A stretch of 64,000 bases of DNA. Origin: Bacteroides fragilis. Lineage in GTDB: Bacteria > Bacteroidota > Bacteroidia > Bacteroidales > DTGW01. Every line of letters starts with the position of its first letter. Position 1 is the stretch's first letter. The DNA lies in NCBI GenBank assembly GCA_945889005.1, contig CAMDBI010000001.1:62001-126000 (forward strand). The letters are read 5' to 3'. The notes under the pieces are model-generated. The model saw only the letters and a program-made list of their open reading frames with translations, did no database searches and was not told the DNA's origin. A program made the position numbers and the translations under genes. Positions 30,753 through 49,767 of the stretch are shown here, one piece after another.

Positions 30753-33065
30753 TTACTTAAAAACCATAAATTTTGTAATTTTAGTTTTTGAGCCATCTTT
30801 GTTTGTGCAAAAAACAAGATAAATCCCGGTGTTTGCTTTGGCTCCTCTAAAATTTCGACCATTCCATATTGCTTGTCCACCAAGCGATTCAGTTTCGAAC
30901 ACCAAATTGCCCGAAATGTCGGTAATTTTTACATTTATATTGTTGGCAAGTCCTGTAATTACAATGTCTCCATCGTAACCAGGTTTCACAGGGTTTGGAT
31001 ACACATATACTTTCCCAAAGTTTTCGAAATTGTCGGTTGCATAGCCTCTGAATGATATAACTCCTTTATCGGTAGCAAAAAATACTTCACCCGAAACAGC
31101 ATCGACGCCAACATCATTCACATTATTTGAGAGAAGAGGACTATTTTCTTCATTAAAATGGAGCAATTCCTGAGTGCCATCATCCGACAGATAATAAACA
31201 CCTGCTCCACCTGTTGCAATCCATTTGCGGTTGGCACCATCTACAGCAATGCCATTGATTCGTGCTTTTTCGAGCAATATGGTAGCATCTGTCGATTTTT
31301 TACTAACAGGAACTTTAATACGCGAAGCATATATTTCTGTGCTAAATACATCTTGAGGATTGTAATATACCACAGGGCCTTCTTTTGTACCTACCCAAAT
31401 AGAGCCATTTTTATCTTCAGCCATACACAAAACATCGCTCGATACCGAGTTGCCTTCAATTTCAACTATTGAAAAAATTTTGTAATCGTCGTCGGATGTA
31501 TCGTCGAAGGTGCCTTTATCGTTAAATGCTAACAATTTTATATTTGGACCCTCGAGTATATATGTCCATTTGTGACCCCACGAAGTAATATATAGTTGTC
31601 CAAATAATAATAAATTTGAATTCAATTTTTCAAATCCGAAACTATGCCATTTATTATCTTTGTCTAATACTGAAATAGGCTTACTTACACTACTATTTGT
31701 AAACCAAAAGTTTCCATCGGCATCTGTTGCAGATCCAAACACCTGAGTAATTGAATTATTTTTATCATCCAGATAAGAATGCAGAGTACTATTTTTAGAG
31801 TCAAGAATATGTGCAAATTTGTTGTTTTTATACTCGATAACCCCAATACCTGACCATGAAGTTGCAAAGAAATGTTGGTCGTCTCTAGGATCTATGCAAA
31901 CAGTAAGAATATCTCTAACCATATTGGTTTCGTCGTTGTCGTAAATGCTATAAGAATGCCAATTGTTGTTGCTAAACATGGCAGATCCACCATTATTCCA
32001 AGTCATATTCCATGTTTGACCTATCATGCCTGCAGTAACCCACACTTTATTATTGAATGGAAAAATTTTGTATGCACTGTTAAAACCTGGCCCGTTGGGG
32101 GCTAAAGTTTTTTGCTCTGTTCCATTATAAATAAATAATCCTGATATGTTTGCAGAGTAGAAAATGTTGTTTGAAGTAATAGTATATTGAGGTAAATAAA
32201 TTGAAATATTATTTATTTGTTGGAGATTGTCGTTAAATTGAACCGATCGTCTAACGGTTGTTGCAAAAAGTGTGTTGCCCGAAACCGAGATCGACGATAC
32301 GGTTTCGTTGTCAATAATTTGAAGTTCTTCCCAATTATTTGCTCCTTGTTTGGTATATACTTTCCCGCTTGTAGAATTGAGTACAACAAGGTATTTAGAA
32401 TTGAAATTGACTATTTGTTTGTATGTATTATCGGTTGCTGATAAAGAATGATCTATGTTCCAGAACTTATAATTTGCCAAAAATTCATTGTCAACCGAAG
32501 CATAGAACAAGCCCTTTTCGGTGCTAGAATAAAAAATTGAATTGAAAATACAAGAAGAGTACACCTTGTTATTAAGACCATTTGACGACGGGTACCAAGA
32601 GTCAATTATTTCTTTATTAGCAATATTTACTTTCAAGATACCAAAATTGCAATTGAAATAAACGAAATCGTCATTAATTATAAGTGAATTAATAGTTTTG
32701 TCAGAAATTGTAATTTTATTTTTTAGTTGAGGAATATTGTCGGTTTTATTATTTCTAATGAAGTCGATATTACCATTTTTGTATGCAATTATTAAGGTTT
32801 TGTGTTTATCGGAATAGTCCAAATCGGCAATTTCAACATCGTTAAGGCCATTTACTTTCGATATTTTATTGAGAGAGTTGTTGCGTGTATCGTAATAAAA
32901 AAGACTTTGGTCGCCAGCACAGTATATACGGTCGTTTACAGCAAGAACTTTTTTAGAATTTGTATAGTTCAAATGGTCTCTCCATTGACCAGGAGCAACC
33001 TGACAATTGACTTTGAAAAAAATTAATAATGTGATTATAAGCAGAAATAATTTCTTTTTTCCCAT
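30753..33065 (-). CDS. PorZ-like Type IX secretion protein, two beta-propellers with sorting tail
   Basis: The 770-residue protein starts with a signal peptide and, right after it, QVAPGQWRDHLNYTNS, a hallmark of PorZ. Repeated propeller-blade segments follow (VNDRIYCAGDQSLFYYD, GSIWVGTKEGPVVYYN, AVSGEVFFATDKGVISF). The C-terminal 85 residues form a Type IX sorting domain (VYVYPNPVKPG, then ITDISGNLVFE and NTGIYLVF). PorZ is a surface part of the T9SS attachment complex that handles A-LPS delivery. The length is close to that of Porphyromonas PorZ. A generic two-component-propeller protein is the alternative. Confidence 0.82.
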   Translation of the reverse strand: MGKKKLFLLIITLLIFFKVNCQVAPGQWRDHLNYTNSKKVLAVNDRIYCAGDQSLFYYDTRNNSLNKISKVNGLNDVEIADLDYSDKHKTLIIAYKNGNIDFIRNNKTDNIPQLKNKITISDKTINSLIINDDFVYFNCNFGILKVNIANKEIIDSWYPSSNGLNNKVYSSCIFNSIFYSSTEKGLFYASVDNEFLANYKFWNIDHSLSATDNTYKQIVNFNSKYLVVLNSTSGKVYTKQGANNWEELQIIDNETVSSISVSGNTLFATTVRRSVQFNDNLQQINNISIYLPQYTITSNNIFYSANISGLFIYNGTEQKTLAPNGPGFNSAYKIFPFNNKVWVTAGMIGQTWNMTWNNGGSAMFSNNNWHSYSIYDNDETNMVRDILTVCIDPRDDQHFFATSWSGIGVIEYKNNKFAHILDSKNSTLHSYLDDKNNSITQVFGSATDADGNFWFTNSSVSKPISVLDKDNKWHSFGFEKLNSNLLLFGQLYITSWGHKWTYILEGPNIKLLAFNDKGTFDDTSDDDYKIFSIVEIEGNSVSSDVLCMAEDKNGSIWVGTKEGPVVYYNPQDVFSTEIYASRIKVPVSKKSTDATILLEKARINGIAVDGANRKWIATGGAGVYYLSDDGTQELLHFNEENSPLLSNNVNDVGVDAVSGEVFFATDKGVISFRGYATDNFENFGKVYVYPNPVKPGYDGDIVITGLANNINVKITDISGNLVFETESLGGQAIWNGRNFRGAKANTGIYLVFCTNKDGSKTKITKFMVFK

Positions 33066-33137
33066 CGTTTATTTTATATAAATAACGAGGGCTAAAGATA
33101 AAAAATTATAAGGAGTTACTATTAAAACAAAAAATGT

Positions 33138-33737
33138 TTAGCAACGATTTGAAAGAAAATCGTGTAGTTTGTTTACAGCTCTTGCTCTGTGGCTCATGAT
33201 ATTTTTTTCGATATTCGACATTTCAGCAAAAGTTTGACTAAAGCCATCGGGAACGAATATAGGATCGTAACCAAATCCCTCATTTCCGGCTTCTTTTGTT
33301 TTTATTTTACCATCAACAAAACCTTCAAAAAAGAAGTGATTGCCGTCAAGAATTAAGGCTATCACTGTTCTAAAGCGTGCTTTTCGGTTGTCGAAATGCT
33401 GCATTTCATCGAGAAGCTTTTGCATATTGAGCTTAGAGCGTAGTTGGCTTGGTATAGCTTTATCGTCGCCACTGTATCGAGCCGAATAAACACCTGGGCG
33501 ACCATTTAAGGCTTCTACCTCGAGCCCCGTATCGTCGGCAAAGCAATTGCAATGAAATTTGTCGAAAACGTACTGTGCTTTTTGAAGGGCATTATCTTGT
33601 AATGTGTCTTTTTCTTCGGGAAGATCGTCGAAACAATCAATTTCCTTAAGACTTTTTATGAAATATTTGTTTTCAAAAATCTGCCTTATTTCGTCAAGCT
33701 TATGTTTGTTGTTTGTTGCAAATACAAGTGTTTTCAT
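33138..33737 (-). CDS. rdgB: RdgB/HAM1 non-canonical purine NTP pyrophosphatase
   Basis: The enzyme removes ITP, dITP and XTP from the nucleotide pool. The N-terminal [14 protein letters not shown] carries the substrate-binding TNNxxK. The central [23 protein letters not shown], split over about 67-90, carries the catalytic acidic pair, and [13 protein letters not shown] follows. I chose the ATG at 33737 (MKTLVFATN) rather than the one at 33776, because the extra 13 residues are not family-like. The universal stress protein gene ends 8 bases upstream. Confidence 0.95.
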
Positions 33738-33744
33738 ACAAGCA

Positions 33745-34584
33745 TTAACTACCGGTAGAACTAAACCCACCATCAATTTTTTTCTTACGAGGATTTACAA
33801 CCATAACTGGTATTTTGGCCGAATTGGCAATAATAGCCTGTTCATTAGGTCCAATTACATAATCGATAAAAGTGATGCTTTTGCTAGTCATAATGAGTAT
33901 GGCTCCGGCATTTTTTTCCTGAGCAAACGCAACAACATCGTGAGCGAAATTAACCTTCTTTTCTAAGGTAACGATTTCATAGGTAAAACTTGTATTACGG
34001 AAGTGTTTACGGGCAAAATCTATATTGGAGAAAATACGTCCTCTAAAAAGCTTATCGGTTACAGGAGCATGTACCAAATATATTTTCGAATGGTATAAAC
34101 TACATAAGTAATATGCCCATTTTATTTTCTCTTTGTTTTCTTTTTTAAAGTCAACCGGAAAAATTATGCTATCGAATTTTTGTTCGGTAGGGAAATCCTG
34201 AACAACGAAAAAAGGAACTTTTGAGCCCAAAATAACCTTGAGAGCCCGGCTACCTGTGAGTTTTTGCATACCTTTAATGCCATGCGTGCCCATCAATACA
34301 AGTTCTACATTGTTCGATTCAGATGCAAACTTACTGATGTCTTTAAAAATATTGCCTTTAATAACCAATACTAAAGGTTCTACACGGTATTTTCCTTTTA
34401 AATTGGTTTTATCGTTTTCGAGTTTTTGAGTGGCTGCTTCAATTTGTTTTTCGTTGCTTACAATGTGAATAATTGTAATAGATGTTCCAATTATTTTTGA
34501 CAATTTAACAGCATACGCGAAGGCATATTCAGCAACAATGGTGAAATCCCAAGGAACCAAAATAGTACGTTGTTGACTTTCCAT
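33745..34584 (-). CDS. Universal stress protein, two tandem Usp domains
   Basis: The 279-residue protein has two Usp-like halves, about 1-145 and 146-279. The first has [22 protein letters not shown] and [22 protein letters not shown], the second [21 protein letters not shown] and [17 protein letters not shown]. The GxGS nucleotide motif is changed in both halves (GSRALK, GPNEQA), so ATP binding is uncertain. Such tandem forms are common in Bacteroidota stress responses. It is directly upstream of rdgB on the same strand. Confidence 0.85.
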
Positions 34585-34629
34585 ATTTAAAGTTTTTTAA
34601 TAAATTCGGTAAATCATTAAAAAAAGTGC

Positions 34630-34637
34630 TAATTTTG
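34630..34637 (+). promoter_or_regulatory. Possible -7 element for the cyclase/HD sensor gene
   Basis: TAATTTTG matches TAnnTTTG 43 bases before the ATG at 34681; no -33 TTG is visible. Confidence 0.35.
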
Positions 34638-34680
34638 AGAAGATGCTCAAAATTGCTTTTTAAAATCTTGCCCTAAATGT

Positions 34681-37600
34681 ATGAATTTTATTAACAAATA
34701 TATAAAACTTGGTTTATTTTTTTTATTGACTTGCCTCAATATAGATAATCAATATGCTTCAAAGAATCATATTGACCTAGATGGGATGCCATTTATAAAT
34801 AATTATTCTTTACCCGAGCCATTTGGTTATTACAATGTAAACTCTTTGGAGAAAGATAGTAATGGAACCGTTTTTATGGCAGTAAATGATAATATTCTTT
34901 GTATTTATAATAACGATTACGATATTATATCTCTTCCTGGTAAAGTATTGCTTACAGCATCATCTTCAAAAATATTTGTTTCGGCCGATCAGTTTATTGG
35001 TTTTATTCAAATAAACTCTTTGGGAAATCCAATTTTATCGGCTATAGTTAACGATTCTTTAGCCGAATCGTTTAATATATCAACTATCGACAATTTTGCA
35101 TATTGTAATCAATCACTTTATTTTACCAGTAAAAATATTTTGTATCGTTTGAAAAGTAATGTTCCTGAAGTAATCGACTCAAGCAAAGGTGCATATTCTT
35201 TTTTTACTTCGAACAACAAATTATTGATTCATCCACATGGCAAGGAACTATTAATTGCAAGCAACAAAGGTTTAGAGCCTTATTATAAGGCTGCAATTCT
35301 TGGTGCAAAATCTATTGAATGGCTTTTTTCAGAAAAAGATGGTATTACAATGAAGCTTGAAAATGGCATTATATATAATATAGATACTTTAAAACAAATA
35401 AAACTTAATAACAATTTTTTAAATATCGATCGGAATATAAATATCAGTTCGGTGTCGATTTTTAACGATTCGGTTTATATAGTTGTAAGCCCTCAAAAAG
35501 GGATTCAATACTATTTAAAATCTGGAAGACTTATTAATACTATAGATTCGGAAAAAGGATTGCCCGATAGCAAAGTAAAATATGTTTATATTGATATTTT
35601 TAAAAACACGATTGCCGTTTTCGACAATTATATTTCTATTATTAGAACCGGGTTTCCCATGTCGTTTTTTGGTCGCGCAAAAGGTCTGAGTGGTAAAATA
35701 AATGACATTTTGGTTTTTAACGGTTCACATTTTGTAGCTTCTACAAATGGTTTACACAAATTGGTTGAAGATAAGAAAACCAAGTCAATACATTTTGAAC
35801 AAATTAAAAATGTACATGGAATAGGTTTGAAAATTAGAGCTATAGACAGTATCATTTATTATATTTCTTCAAAAGGTATTTACTGTATCGAAAACGAAAA
35901 GGCAGATCAATTAGTAAATGATCCAATTATTTCTGAAGCTTTTTTGGTGTCGGACAGCAATAAACTTATATTGTCGGGAACCGATAAAAAGATTAAGGTT
36001 TTTAAGGTAAATAAAAGAAAACTACAGAAAATAAGAGAATTTAACATCGACGAACCCATTACTAAAATAATACCCGATAATAAAGGATACATTTGGTTCT
36101 TAACAGGACTCAATAAAATAAGCATTCTGCGCGAAGACATGGTATACCATGGAGGTAAATTAAAAAATATTTCGATATTAAAAGCTGCAATAAATAGTAT
36201 TGTCGTAAATAATAATCTTTTATATTTTATTTCGAAGCAAGATATTTATATTTTTGATTATAACAACAATCTTTTTGTAAAAGACAATATCATATCGAAT
36301 TTGGAACAAGGCAAAACATTGAGATTATTTCCAATTTCGACTAACGATACCGATCGGCAGTGGTTTACCTATTCCGATATATCGAACAATAATTATGGTT
36401 TACTACTTTTGAATAACAAAAAGGGCGACAATAGAATACAATTTATCAATATTCCTCATAAACTATCGGGAATAGTATTTGTCGAAAAGAACAATGTATG
36501 GGTCGGAAGTTATAATGGATTGCTGCATTATAGCATAAACGAAGATATTATATCGTATAGCAACTTAAACACCCGTATAAAAGAAATTAAAATAGGGAAC
36601 GATTCGTCGATTTCGCTCAATGGATCTGCAGAGATAGATTTTTCGTTAAATAACATACACTTTTCATACTCAACAAGTCAAATTGAAAATGATTTAATAC
36701 AATATCAATATCGATTGATAAATGCGAATAAACAATGGTCAGACTGGTCGAATCAAACCATAAAAGACTATACGAATTTAAGTCCCGGGTATTATACTTT
36801 TCAGTTACGAAGTCGCAATCTCAATGGAAATATATCGTCGATTGTTGAGTATCAGTTTCAAATAAAACGACCCTTTTATTTGAGTATACCATTCTATATT
36901 TTGTATATATTGATAGGACTAATTATGTTGTTTTTGTTTTTTAGATGGCGCACTTGGGTTTATTTAAAAGAAAACGAAAAACTCGAAAACATTATACATG
37001 AAAGAACCGAAGAATTAATACGGGAAAAAGAAAAGAGCGAACATCTTTTGGCCAATATGTTACCCAAAGGCACAGCCGATGAACTGAAATTGACCGGAAA
37101 GGCAACATCTCAAAAATACACGATGGCAACAGTGTTATTTTCAGATATTCAAGGGTTTACCAAAATAGCAGAACACCTAAATCCCGATACACTTATCGAT
37201 CAGCTCGATTCGTTTTTCTTTCAGTTTGACAGTGTGGTAGAACGCTATAATATAGAGAAAATAAAGACAATAGGCGATGCATACATGTGTGCGGGAGGGA
37301 TTCCCAAAAAAAATATAACAAATCCGGTTGAAGTTGTACTTGCAGCATTAGAAATGCAAGACTATATGCACGATCTGAAAGCAAAAAACACCGATATTTG
37401 GGATCTTCGTATTGGAATTCACACTGGGTCAGTTATTGCCGGAGTAGTGGGTCAAAAGAAACTATCGTACGATATTTGGGGCGATACCGTAAATGTTGCC
37501 AGCCGTATGGAATCGTCGGGCGAGCCCGGGAAAGTTAATGTTTCGGGACAAACATACGAACATATAAAAGAGTTTTTTGTGTGCGAATACCGTGGCAAAA

Positions 37601-38307
37601 TGCCTGTAAAATACAAAGGAGAAATCGATATGTATTTTGTTAAATGCGTAAGACCTGAGCTTTCGCAAAACATGAAAAATATTCCGAATAAAAAATTCCA
37701 AATTAAACTACAATTATTGCGATTGTTCGATCTCGAGGAATTTATGTATGAAAAGTACGAACGAGAATTGCCCGAAAACCTTCATTTTCATAATATAAAT
37801 CATGTAAAAGAAACAGTTAATTATTCTGAATTACTAGCAAAAGCCAACGATTTGACAGTAGAAGAAAACCTCATTTTAATAACATCTGCACTGCTTCACG
37901 ATATTGGTTATATATGGTCGTACGAAAATCACGAAGATTTTAGTGTAAATTTTGTTCGAGAAATTTTGCCACAATTTAGATACACACCCGAACAGATAGA
38001 TCAAATTTGTGAATTGATAAATGTTACACGCCGGGGACAAAAAGCTCAAAATATATTGGAAGAAACCTTGTTGGATTCAATAATGGGCTATATCGGTCGC
38101 CCCGATTTTGTAATACTTTCAGAAAATTTATATAACGAATTATACGATTTTGGCCTAGTCCATTCGAAAGATGAATGGGTAAAAATGCAAATTACATTAT
38201 TGTCTAATCATAAATTTAATACAGAAGCAGCCAATAAACTGCGCGAAGTACCAGCCGATCGACAAATAGAATTACTTTTGAGCACATTTGATAAAAAATC
38301 TTTTTAA
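34681..38307 (+). CDS. Propeller sensor with class III adenylate cyclase and C-terminal HD domain
   Basis: The 1208-residue protein has a signal peptide, a long beta-propeller sensor (about 30-640) and a Y_Y_Y-like domain (about 655-725: LIQYQYRLINANKQWSDWS, LSPGYYTFQLRSRN). A membrane helix at about 731-757 and a short coiled coil lead to a class III cyclase domain (about 810-985). Metal Asp residues are in FSDIQGF and IGDAYM. Lys in KIKTIGDAYM and Asp in YDIWGDTVNVASRM mark it as adenylate rather than guanylate specific. The C-terminus (about 1020-1200) looks like an HD phosphohydrolase (HNINHVKETV, LLHDIGYI). It may make and remove cyclic nucleotide in one chain. Confidence 0.88.
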   Translation: MNFINKYIKLGLFFLLTCLNIDNQYASKNHIDLDGMPFINNYSLPEPFGYYNVNSLEKDSNGTVFMAVNDNILCIYNNDYDIISLPGKVLLTASSSKIFVSADQFIGFIQINSLGNPILSAIVNDSLAESFNISTIDNFAYCNQSLYFTSKNILYRLKSNVPEVIDSSKGAYSFFTSNNKLLIHPHGKELLIASNKGLEPYYKAAILGAKSIEWLFSEKDGITMKLENGIIYNIDTLKQIKLNNNFLNIDRNINISSVSIFNDSVYIVVSPQKGIQYYLKSGRLINTIDSEKGLPDSKVKYVYIDIFKNTIAVFDNYISIIRTGFPMSFFGRAKGLSGKINDILVFNGSHFVASTNGLHKLVEDKKTKSIHFEQIKNVHGIGLKIRAIDSIIYYISSKGIYCIENEKADQLVNDPIISEAFLVSDSNKLILSGTDKKIKVFKVNKRKLQKIREFNIDEPITKIIPDNKGYIWFLTGLNKISILREDMVYHGGKLKNISILKAAINSIVVNNNLLYFISKQDIYIFDYNNNLFVKDNIISNLEQGKTLRLFPISTNDTDRQWFTYSDISNNNYGLLLLNNKKGDNRIQFINIPHKLSGIVFVEKNNVWVGSYNGLLHYSINEDIISYSNLNTRIKEIKIGNDSSISLNGSAEIDFSLNNIHFSYSTSQIENDLIQYQYRLINANKQWSDWSNQTIKDYTNLSPGYYTFQLRSRNLNGNISSIVEYQFQIKRPFYLSIPFYILYILIGLIMLFLFFRWRTWVYLKENEKLENIIHERTEELIREKEKSEHLLANMLPKGTADELKLTGKATSQKYTMATVLFSDIQGFTKIAEHLNPDTLIDQLDSFFFQFDSVVERYNIEKIKTIGDAYMCAGGIPKKNITNPVEVVLAALEMQDYMHDLKAKNTDIWDLRIGIHTGSVIAGVVGQKKLSYDIWGDTVNVASRMESSGEPGKVNVSGQTYEHIKEFFVCEYRGKMPVKYKGEIDMYFVKCVRPELSQNMKNIPNKKFQIKLQLLRLFDLEEFMYEKYERELPENLHFHNINHVKETVNYSELLAKANDLTVEENLILITSALLHDIGYIWSYENHEDFSVNFVREILPQFRYTPEQIDQICELINVTRRGQKAQNILEETLLDSIMGYIGRPDFVILSENLYNELYDFGLVHSKDEWVKMQITLLSNHKFNTEAANKLREVPADRQIELLLSTFDKKSF

Positions 38308-38407
38308 AAAGCCATATAAGTATATAATAAATCAATTATTTTTGAAAAATGCTTTTTTAGGAACAATTTTGAAAAAGTAGGCTGATTACAAATTGAAGAT
38401 TACATAG

Positions 38408-39424
38408 ATGGAAACAATTGATTGGAAGAATTTGGGGTTTGGTTACATGAAGACCGATTTTAATTCGCGTTGTTATTATAAAGAAGGTAAATGGGGCGAA
38501 ATTGAAATTTCCGATTCCGAATATGTAAACATGCACATGGCAGCTACTTGCTTACATTATGGGCAAGAAGCATTTGAAGGTTTAAAAGCATATCGTTGCA
38601 AAGATGGTAAAATTCGTATGTTTCGCATTGCCGACAATGCACAACGTATGTGGGAAACTGCCCAATATATTATGATGCAACCTGTTCCAAAAGAAATCTT
38701 TATCAATTCGGTAATAGAAGTTGTTAAACGCAACGAAAGATTTATACCTCCATATGGTTCAGGAGCATCGTTATATGTACGTCCTTTATTGATTGGTGTT
38801 GGTCCAGAAGTTGGCGTAAAACCATCGAAAGAATACTTATTTATGGTTTTTGTTACACCCGTAGGTCCATATTTCAAAGAAGGTTTTAACCCTGCCAATG
38901 TTATGATTTGTCGCGACTACGATCGTGCAGCCCCACTGGGTACAGGTCATATAAAAGTTGGTGGCAATTATGCAGCCAGTCTTTTATCGCTCAAGAAAGG
39001 CACAGAACTGGGTTATGCTTCAGTACTGTATCTCGATGCACGCGAAAAAAAATATATTGACGAAAGTGGACAAACCAATTTTTTTGGTATCAAAAACAAT
39101 ACATACGTAACACCCGAATCGCGCTCGATATTGCCTTCAATTACCAACAAAAGTATCATGGCACTTGCCGAGGGTATGGGAATGAAAGTTGAAAAGCGTC
39201 GTGTACCATTCGAAGAGCTCGAAACTTTTGAGGAAGTAGGTTCGTGCGGTACGGCTGCTGTTATAAGCCCTATTAAGAAGATCGTTGATCCGGACAACAA
39301 CCGTATTTACGAATATTGTAAAGATGGAAAACCTGGTCCTGTATGCGAAAAATTATATAACAAGTTGCTAGCCATACAGTATGGCGACGAGCCCGATACA
39401 CATGGATGGGTAACGGTGTTGTAA
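38408..39424 (+). CDS. ilvE: Branched-chain amino acid aminotransferase
   Basis: The 338-residue fold-type IV PLP enzyme transfers amino groups between branched-chain amino acids and 2-oxoglutarate. The PLP-binding Lys is in GTGHIKVGGNYAASL. Other family segments are HYGQEAFEGLKAYR, SGASLYVRPLLIG, and DESGQTNFFGI. The C-terminal EEVGSCGTAAVISPI is also typical of the class II IlvE group. It appears to be a single gene ended by a strong terminator. Confidence 0.95.
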   Translation: METIDWKNLGFGYMKTDFNSRCYYKEGKWGEIEISDSEYVNMHMAATCLHYGQEAFEGLKAYRCKDGKIRMFRIADNAQRMWETAQYIMMQPVPKEIFINSVIEVVKRNERFIPPYGSGASLYVRPLLIGVGPEVGVKPSKEYLFMVFVTPVGPYFKEGFNPANVMICRDYDRAAPLGTGHIKVGGNYAASLLSLKKGTELGYASVLYLDAREKKYIDESGQTNFFGIKNNTYVTPESRSILPSITNKSIMALAEGMGMKVEKRRVPFEELETFEEVGSCGTAAVISPIKKIVDPDNNRIYEYCKDGKPGPVCEKLYNKLLAIQYGDEPDTHGWVTVL

Positions 39425-47916: not shown

Positions 47917-49767
47917 TTATTTAACTTCCCAATCAATTTCATATTCGCTATTGGAACGTAGACTTTTCTTATATCTATAAAAGTCGACCTTTTCTGCTTG
48001 AATTTTCCTTAAAAAATCGCCAGTATCCCATATTCCATTGGCGTTTGTATCGTAGATTAATTTTAAAGAGTATTCTTCGGGGTTGAGATATTTAAAAACT
48101 AATTTTGAATCATTAGAGGTAAATAGCTGTTTATAAACAACATCGCCTTTAAGTAATTGCAGAATTAACGGGCATTTTACATTAGTAAGGTTTACAATTA
48201 TTGATGCATAATAATTGAGAGATTGAGTTTTAAAATAGACAGAAAGCGTATCGTGCTCCAAACCATATATACATTGAGCTGCACCTTGAGGAATTAGAAG
48301 TTTATAGTCTTTATTTTCGTTCTTTTTAAAATCAATTATCCAAGATCTTTTGGCATTTGTATCGATCTTCAAAACAAATTTTTCGGGCAAATAAACAGAA
48401 TCTTTTTTTATACTCAACACTATTTTCGAAGTATCTATATAATTTACAGGATATTGTATAGTAAACTTTACATTGTTGTCCAAGTCGAGAGTTCCATTGA
48501 TATTGCTTGTAATTGACATTTTTTCTTTAATCACTTTAGCTTTTTTATTTTCAATATGCTGAAAACGAAGCATAAGTGTATCGGTTCTGATTGTATCAAT
48601 ATTATTTTTGTTTGTAAAAGGATATTTTACTTTTAATCGCAATGTGTCAGACATTATCAAAGTAGTATCTGTAATCCAGTAAATAATACTATCGGATTTC
48701 GAAAAGAATTCGGGCAAATACCAATTTTGATTATTTTGATAATAAATGGGATTAATTGAAAAAATATTTGTGTCGATAGGGTTGCTATGTTTAAAAGATA
48801 AAGATCGACGGTTTCTTCTTCCAAAATCCTTTAAACGCATAGTTTTTTCATTTTCTTTAAAAAGATACATATCGGCATAAAGAGCGTAAATAGAACCTAA
48901 ATTCATAATAGAATCTATTAGCAAAGTGTCGTTGGCAAGTTTTTTGGATAAATCATGTTCATTGTTTTTACGATTTTTAATAGTTGATTTGACCTTTGGA
49001 TTAATTGGAATTGTTTTGATTTTTTCCAGCGTATCTGTTTTTTTAATTGCTGCAGTATCTTTGTAAATAAATTTTGAGGGGTCGAGGTGTATGAGCGTAT
49101 CTGCAAAAGCAATTTTATCGGATTTTGGGTCGAATTTCAAATTATTGTTAGCATCTTTCAAAGCATAGAGCCTATAAATACCCGGTTTAACATTATTTAT
49201 TGTATAAATTCCATACCTGGAAATTGAAGAAATGTAATCGGGTATTTGTTTGTAAGGAGCAGAATCGTTGAGGTTTGAGTACAAAGCAGCATAGTATCCT
49301 TCATTTTCGGGCTCTAATGTAAAAGCATCATATATTTGACCTTTTATACCCAATGAATCTAAATAACTACCAGTTGAAAATACATATTCAAAATTGCGTA
49401 GAGGATTATTCTCATTTAAATCACAAATTGTATTTCCAAAATTGAAAGTATAAGTTGTATTTTCTTTCAAAGAATCGGAAAATGATACTACAAAAGAACT
49501 TGCTTTAACCAATACACGCGGTTTTTTTTTGAAAGGAGGTGAAATGAATAATTTTGAAGCTATTGCACTACCATTGATATATTCGTTGAAACCAAGTTCA
49601 AATTTCTTCTTATCGAAATTTATCGAATAGTTTGCCGGATTTGCTTTAGTTAAAACTGGAGGAGTAATATCTTTTTCGCCGCCAGTAATTACCCCTTGAC
49701 GAGCACACGATCCATATAAAAAAGCAATACCTACAAGTCCAATAGAGAAATAAATTATTTTTTTCAA
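47917..49767 (-). CDS. Lipoprotein with N-terminal Ig-like (Big_5/SbsA-like) domain
   Basis: The 616-residue protein has a lipobox YGSC (Cys at residue 21). A domain like SbsA_Ig/Big_5 follows (about 35-130: DITPPVLTKANPANYSINF, then LKENTTYTFNFGNTICD). A carboxypeptidase-like segment is near 140-230 (IKGQIYDAF, PGIYRLYALKDANNNLKFD) and another near the C-terminus (YSLKLIYDTNANGIWDTGDF). This layout is seen in Bacteroidota surface lipoproteins. The function is unknown. It is followed on the same strand only by the convergent terminator. Confidence 0.8.
   Translation of the reverse strand: MKKIIYFSIGLVGIAFLYGSCARQGVITGGEKDITPPVLTKANPANYSINFDKKKFELGFNEYINGSAIASKLFISPPFKKKPRVLVKASSFVVSFSDSLKENTTYTFNFGNTICDLNENNPLRNFEYVFSTGSYLDSLGIKGQIYDAFTLEPENEGYYAALYSNLNDSAPYKQIPDYISSISRYGIYTINNVKPGIYRLYALKDANNNLKFDPKSDKIAFADTLIHLDPSKFIYKDTAAIKKTDTLEKIKTIPINPKVKSTIKNRKNNEHDLSKKLANDTLLIDSIMNLGSIYALYADMYLFKENEKTMRLKDFGRRNRRSLSFKHSNPIDTNIFSINPIYYQNNQNWYLPEFFSKSDSIIYWITDTTLIMSDTLRLKVKYPFTNKNNIDTIRTDTLMLRFQHIENKKAKVIKEKMSITSNINGTLDLDNNVKFTIQYPVNYIDTSKIVLSIKKDSVYLPEKFVLKIDTNAKRSWIIDFKKNENKDYKLLIPQGAAQCIYGLEHDTLSVYFKTQSLNYYASIIVNLTNVKCPLILQLLKGDVVYKQLFTSNDSKLVFKYLNPEEYSLKLIYDTNANGIWDTGDFLRKIQAEKVDFYRYKKSLRSNSEYEIDWEVK

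Follow-up and report, generated by a model that had tools for sequence, protein, structure and literature searches.

A putative receptor adenylate cyclase with a decayed HD domain, and its soluble paralogue, in Bacteroidota

The gene and its neighbourhood

A single uninterrupted open reading frame for a protein of 1208 amino acids was found in the window (the whole stretch of DNA analysed, 64,000 nucleotides), and its features and the adjoining genes are listed in Table 1. As a preliminary description of this DNA had stated, one polypeptide carried a propeller, a Y_Y_Y domain, an adenylate cyclase domain and an HD domain; the domains were recovered by Pfam, and hydropathy gave one strong transmembrane segment (~733–757). 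Judging from the hydrophobic stretch at the N-terminus, residues ~1–27 would serve as an export signal. The propeller region could be aligned over its full length with those of other propeller cyclases (L004–L007), and its Reg_prop match was weak (21.4 bits, cut-off 20.4). No match to HisKA or HATPase was detected in the protein by Pfam. Residues 740–810 could also be aligned to mammalian adenylate cyclases. Full-length relatives, at 32–40% identity, were present within the same family and order.

Table 1. Features of the cyclase-HD gene and of the genes beside it (positions are those of the window)
Feature	Positions	Strand	Evidence
Whole gene, propeller-Y_Y_Y-transmembrane helix-putative adenylate cyclase-pseudo-HD, 1208 aa	34681..38307	+	ORF, Pfam
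Putative N-terminal export signal (~1–27) and beta-propeller sensor region (~28–640)	34681..36600	+	Weak Reg_prop matches; alignment to L004–L007
Y_Y_Y domain, residues 670–727	36688..36861	+	Pfam PF07495, 5.1e-9, 36 bits
Single transmembrane helix, ~733–754	36877..36942	+	Hydropathy maximum 2.63 at 736–754
Putative helical signalling linker, residues 755–809	36943..37107	+	Helix in predicted model of residues 754–1208
Class III adenylate cyclase catalytic domain, residues 810–988	37108..37644	+	PF00211 (Guanylate_cyc), 2.8e-55; residues intact
HD domain, residues 1003–1205, decayed phosphodiesterase-like fold	37687..38295	+	Model pLDDT 94.7; YpgQ and PDE10A folds; drift
HNxxH motif, residues 1037–1041 (H1037, H1041), kept	37789..37803	+	Residue reading
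HD dyad H1073-D1074, kept	37897..37902	+	Residue reading
D1132-S-I1134, Ile1134 in place of terminal metal Asp	38074..38082	+	Alignment, profile register
PorZ homologue (type IX secretion) of conserved block	30753..33065	-	PF21544, 6.8e-34; synteny
rdgB-like gene of conserved block	33138..33776	-	Synteny
Universal stress protein (usp), conserved block adjoining A-type cyclase-HD	33745..34584	-	PF00582; synteny
Class IV aminotransferase (ilvE-like), directly downstream of cyclase-HD in many relatives	38408..39424	+	PF01063; synteny

Fused cyclase-HD proteins comprised two types, clade A (membrane proteins with propeller and Y_Y_Y, the propeller being absent from some) and clade B (soluble proteins of ~475 aa with a coiled coil); the present protein is of type A. 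The gene order PorZ, presumed rdgB, usp, A-type cyclase-HD and ilvE-like (30753–39424 here) recurred across distant Bacteroidota. Elsewhere in the window, a 616-aa protein (47917–49767, minus strand) contained a Big_5 Ig-like domain and a weak match to DUF2141.

Cyclase and HD domains

The cyclase domain scored 187 bits against PF00211 (cut-off 21.9). Class III cyclases use two metal-binding Asp residues (D822 and D866 here), an adenine-selecting Lys/Asp pair (K862, D931) and a transition-state Asn/Arg pair (N938, R942). All six were in place, as the preliminary description had reported for the metal Asp residues and the adenylate Lys/Asp pair. In a comparison with propeller cyclases that have intact HD domains, the domain scored 339 bits, close to their median of 333. 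Since the metal-binding, adenine-selecting and transition-state residues were all kept, the domain should, from what is known of the family, form an active adenylate cyclase homodimer.

The Pfam HD match (PF01966, residues 1039–1115) was just above threshold, at 25–29 bits against a cut-off of 22. The isolated HD domain was predicted with a pLDDT of 94.7, and the solved folds closest to this model were YpgQ (Z 17.2), a (d)NTP pyrophosphohydrolase (PMC8177086), and mammalian PDE10A (Z 16.8, 195 residues aligned), followed by PDE7 and PDE2. The profile of the cyclase-HD family matched PDE9A by sequence across the HNxxH...HD segment, and weak PDEase_I matches were found in 42 of 57 family members. 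PF00233 (PDEase_I) had no listed match for the present protein; its best score in the genome, and the sole PDEase_I-like match there, was that of the clade B paralogue (19.6 bits, cut-off 24.8). Assignment of the protein as a class I cyclic-nucleotide phosphodiesterase was ruled out by score, the HNxxH motif and the phosphodiesterase-like fold being present. Given the phosphodiesterase/YpgQ fold, the ancestor of this domain plausibly hydrolysed the product of the adjoining cyclase; an activity on cAMP is presumed from the fusion, the operon pairing and the fold. To that extent, the hydrolysis of nucleotides or cyclic nucleotides considered in the preliminary description is plausible for the ancestor, but the present domain has drifted and lacks the fourth metal ligand.

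The preliminary description also had the HD domain keeping its HD dyad and a later Asp. The dyad was confirmed. The later Asp, D1132, was present as well but did not occupy the ligand position. In the tail motif, which read ...IICDADLDYLGR... in intact relatives and ...TLLDSIMGYIGR... here, the segment I-I-C-D-A-D-L-D-Y was replaced by T-L-L-D1132-S-I1134-M-G-Y. In 5 of 5 intact proteins checked, the Pfam HD match ran exactly up to the second Asp of CDADLD, at profile position 111; the match of the present protein ended already at position 84–87. In this register, further HD proteins encoded by the genome had a single Asp after Ala (RelA-like IKLADRLHN, IKIADK and VEADFL). D1132 was found in 71/71 clade A proteins, including 12 without H1041, H1073 and/or D1074; D1134 was absent from all 12 of these, kept in 84/84 clade B proteins and replaced by Ile in the present one. 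From the end of the Pfam match, the HD proteins of the same genome and the invariance of D1132 in dead HD domains, the fourth ligand of this family is, by sequence register, the second Asp (position 1134) and not D1132. The change of Asp to Ile thus removed the terminal metal ligand, and of the four ligands (H...HD...D) of a competent HD phosphohydrolase, H1041, H1073 and D1074 were present, with I1134 at the last position. A criterion with D1132 as the terminal ligand, which scores this HD domain as intact, was dropped because D1132 is invariant even in dead ones. Beside HNxxH, the residues H1084, E1085, Q1105 and Q1170 were retained.

Drift of the whole domain was also apparent. Against a model built on intact HD domains it scored 195 bits, compared with at least 274 bits for held-out intact domains (n=121) and 156–214 for dead ones (n=12), and 23 of 64 strongly conserved positions were altered. 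The ratio of HD to cyclase divergence was 1.03 in HD-intact pairs and 3.23 in HD-dead pairs. Compared with its nearest relative (G001), the protein was 86% identical in the cyclase and 47% in the HD domain, the latter having diverged ~4 times as much as the adjoining cyclase. Most likely, the HD domain no longer hydrolyses and has a regulatory or structural role.

In propeller cyclases of family f15 (G349, G129, G291 and G221), the motif read CDANLDH, with the terminal Asp changed to Asn and H, H and D kept. By its residues, this state looks like a milder stage of the same type of decay.

Distribution and the two paralogues

The preliminary description regarded the joining of a propeller/Y_Y_Y sensor to a cyclase as unusual. 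In a search with a cyclase-HD profile, matches (cyclase-only proteins included) were found in 243 of 393 genomes of the order, and open reading frames of at least 1080 aa gave 43 distinct long fused proteins within one order alone. The propeller-cyclase-HD architecture, with intact HD domains, was also present in Crocinitomicaceae/Flavobacteriales. Because it recurs this widely, the fusion is not rare, and the architecture is common in Bacteroidota. A literature search, with most subscription journals outside its scope, returned nothing on propeller/Y_Y_Y-linked adenylate cyclases or bacterial cyclase-HD fusions. A census of 2005, in which Bacteroidetes were represented by the four genomes available at the time, found no adenylate cyclases in them (PMC1183210).

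Variants of the arrangement were seen. Some clade A members of ~620 aa (L044, L046 and L289) kept Y_Y_Y and the cyclase without a propeller, so their sensor appears to have been trimmed or swapped. At three loci (L013, L028 and L029), a propeller/Y_Y_Y cyclase was followed by a separate intact HD reading frame, overlapping or about a dozen bases away, by its gene order a split version of the fusion.

The protein belonged to a clade of ~20 propeller/Y_Y_Y cyclases, all without D1134. In a clade A tree built solely from cyclase columns (moderate support), all D1134-less proteins, this one among them, grouped together except for two long-branched ones. The tree needed 3 state changes for the four-ligand criterion and 5 when the other three ligands were scored for loss, counts that alone give no direction. 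An early loss of D1134 followed by erosion in steps would fit, with the present protein as an intermediate stage.

Clade B presented the opposite picture: the HD ligands were intact in 84/84 proteins, and 35/84 had lost a cyclase metal Asp; on a tree of the HD domain alone, this took at least 16 changes. The genome studied here encoded a single clade B protein (L002; G000:C5:11473-12873, minus strand, a 486-codon frame on another contig), in which the four HD ligands were intact and the first cyclase metal Asp was replaced by Tyr. Its residues make it the likely cAMP hydrolase of this genome, and synthesis and hydrolysis are most likely borne by two paralogues.

Loss of both halves was seen in none of 142 proteins (scored with D1132 as the terminal HD ligand). 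Both were kept in 16 of 17 genomes with a single fused match, the exception (G318) matching weakly and carrying a TGA in frame. The clade B cyclase was dead in 15/19 genomes with an HD-dead clade A protein versus 9/23 otherwise (Fisher p=0.013, kinship ignored), a comparison for which just one phylogenetically independent pair was available; in 4 genomes, an HD-dead clade A protein stood alongside a clade B protein with intact metal Asps. This pattern of sole copies and mirrored losses is what subfunctionalisation after duplication predicts, and it is statistically unproven. Because the B-type copy lies on the opposite side of PorZ-rdgB-usp in several genomes (L287–L289, L046, L049 and L074), the A/B pair probably arose, or long persisted, at this block.

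A proposed division of labour and its alternatives

We propose, with a probability of about 0.68, that the protein is a receptor adenylate cyclase with a pseudo-phosphodiesterase tail, that its soluble paralogue hydrolyses, and that both came from one bifunctional ancestor. This proposal is built on the anatomy, residues, phylogeny, drift, paralogue pattern and synteny observed, from which we infer catalytic states, cAMP as the HD substrate, sensing and regulation. The extracytoplasmic propeller/Y_Y_Y module would sense a ligand, and the one transmembrane helix and then a coiled linker would relay the signal to a class III cyclase homodimer, which would make cAMP. The C-terminal HD domain would derive from a phosphodiesterase-like domain that hydrolysed the ancestral product; its terminal metal Asp (now Ile1134) would have been lost in the common ancestor of the ~20 related proteins, with drift since. 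Hydrolysis would have been taken over by the soluble coiled-coil paralogue, with Tyr at its cyclase metal Asp, after an ancestral make-and-break cAMP enzyme had duplicated beside PorZ-rdgB-usp-ilvE and the copies had shared out the labour. Against this stands the retention of H1037, H1041, H1073 and D1074, which are partly lost in sister proteins, and D1132, two residues from position 1134, might be a substitute ligand.

The retained residues bear on an alternative that we consider unlikely, in which the HD domain, without hydrolysing, binds cAMP or another nucleotide and feeds the product level back to the adjoining cyclase. HNxxH, H1084, E1085, Q1105 and Q1170 are kept despite the broken metal site and the domain is never deleted within the HD-dead clade, but several of these residues are also lost in sister proteins with dead HD domains, so that a binding function is not shared by the clade as a whole. 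The fold leaves room for a still more doubtful reading, that the substrate of the HD family is another nucleotide (dNTPs, as for YpgQ, or a cyclic dinucleotide) and that this family is joined to the cyclase for a reason other than cAMP breakdown. YpgQ was indeed the closest fold match, but PDE10A, PDE7 and PDE2 matched equally well across ~195/208 residues, the sequence similarities to PDE9A and PDEase_I noted above point the other way, and fusion and operon pairing with an adenylate cyclase recur. Improbable is the self-limiting, make-and-destroy switch of the preliminary description, with cAMP still hydrolysed via D1132 or a water: HNxxH and the HD dyad are kept unlike in sister proteins, the HD fold is predicted with high confidence and full-motif relatives exist, but Ile stands at the terminal ligand position, the drift score lies within the dead range, HD divergence is accelerated, the protein is nested among D1134-less ones, and a review lists the HD-GYP protein Bd1817, with Asn at the terminal Asp, as inactive on c-di-GMP (PMC8177086).

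Such a switch on one chain is plausible for the relatives with intact HD domains, especially in sole-copy genomes. Of more interest than this switch is the mirrored decay of the two paralogues. Under the proposed division of labour, the two paralogues form a natural series (intact, half-decayed and fully decayed) in which sharing of functions after duplication is directly testable, and a cAMP system equipped with receptor cyclases and dedicated hydrolases of its own would be widespread, occurring in many Bacteroidota. A speculative extension is a two-paralogue cAMP circuit of mirror-image pseudo-enzymes around the porZ block, where the dead tail of the membrane cyclases would read cAMP as a feedback signal and the dead cyclase of the soluble phosphodiesterases would read ATP or pair with the membrane partner. 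The case also cautions against taking an Asp for a metal ligand because it lies close to the end of an HD domain and looks conserved.

Several known systems resemble parts of this arrangement. The closest solved cyclase sequences, those of mammalian AC8/AC9 and mycobacterial-type Cya, share the catalytic residues but have neither the propeller sensor nor the HD tail. GGDEF-EAL and GGDEF-HD-GYP composites and RelA/SpoT likewise combine a messenger synthase and a hydrolase in a single polypeptide, of which one half is often degenerate; their messenger and synthase family are different, and here the functions are divided between two cyclase-HD paralogues. The hybrid two-component sensors (HTCS) of Bacteroides (see also PMC3243724) have the same extracytoplasmic propeller, Y_Y_Y and single transmembrane design, but their output is a histidine kinase/receiver/AraC and not a cyclase. 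Assignment as an HTCS agreed with the sensor part (Y_Y_Y, Reg_prop) and failed on the kinase output.

CAPE (combined adenylyl cyclase with phosphodiesterase) of Marchantia and other streptophytes likewise has a class III cyclase and a PDE/HD-fold domain on one membrane polypeptide (PMC5159850, PMC8115329). In the liverwort protein, replacing H199 or H203, which are conserved and four residues apart, abolished activity (PMC5159850); judging by this spacing, H1037 and H1041 look like their counterparts here. The phosphodiesterase of the plant protein is N-terminal and active and there are two transmembrane segments, whereas the HD domain here is C-terminal, shorter, without the terminal Asp and behind a propeller. 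Assignment as CAPE was ruled out by the reversed domain order and the missing metal ligand.

Five proteins with a cNMP-binding domain and of CRP-like length were found in the genome (G000 contigs C15, C3 and C23), candidate cAMP receptors that could receive the signal of the proposed receptor cyclase. For the conserved PorZ block, a connection of cAMP signalling with type IX secretion is conceivable.
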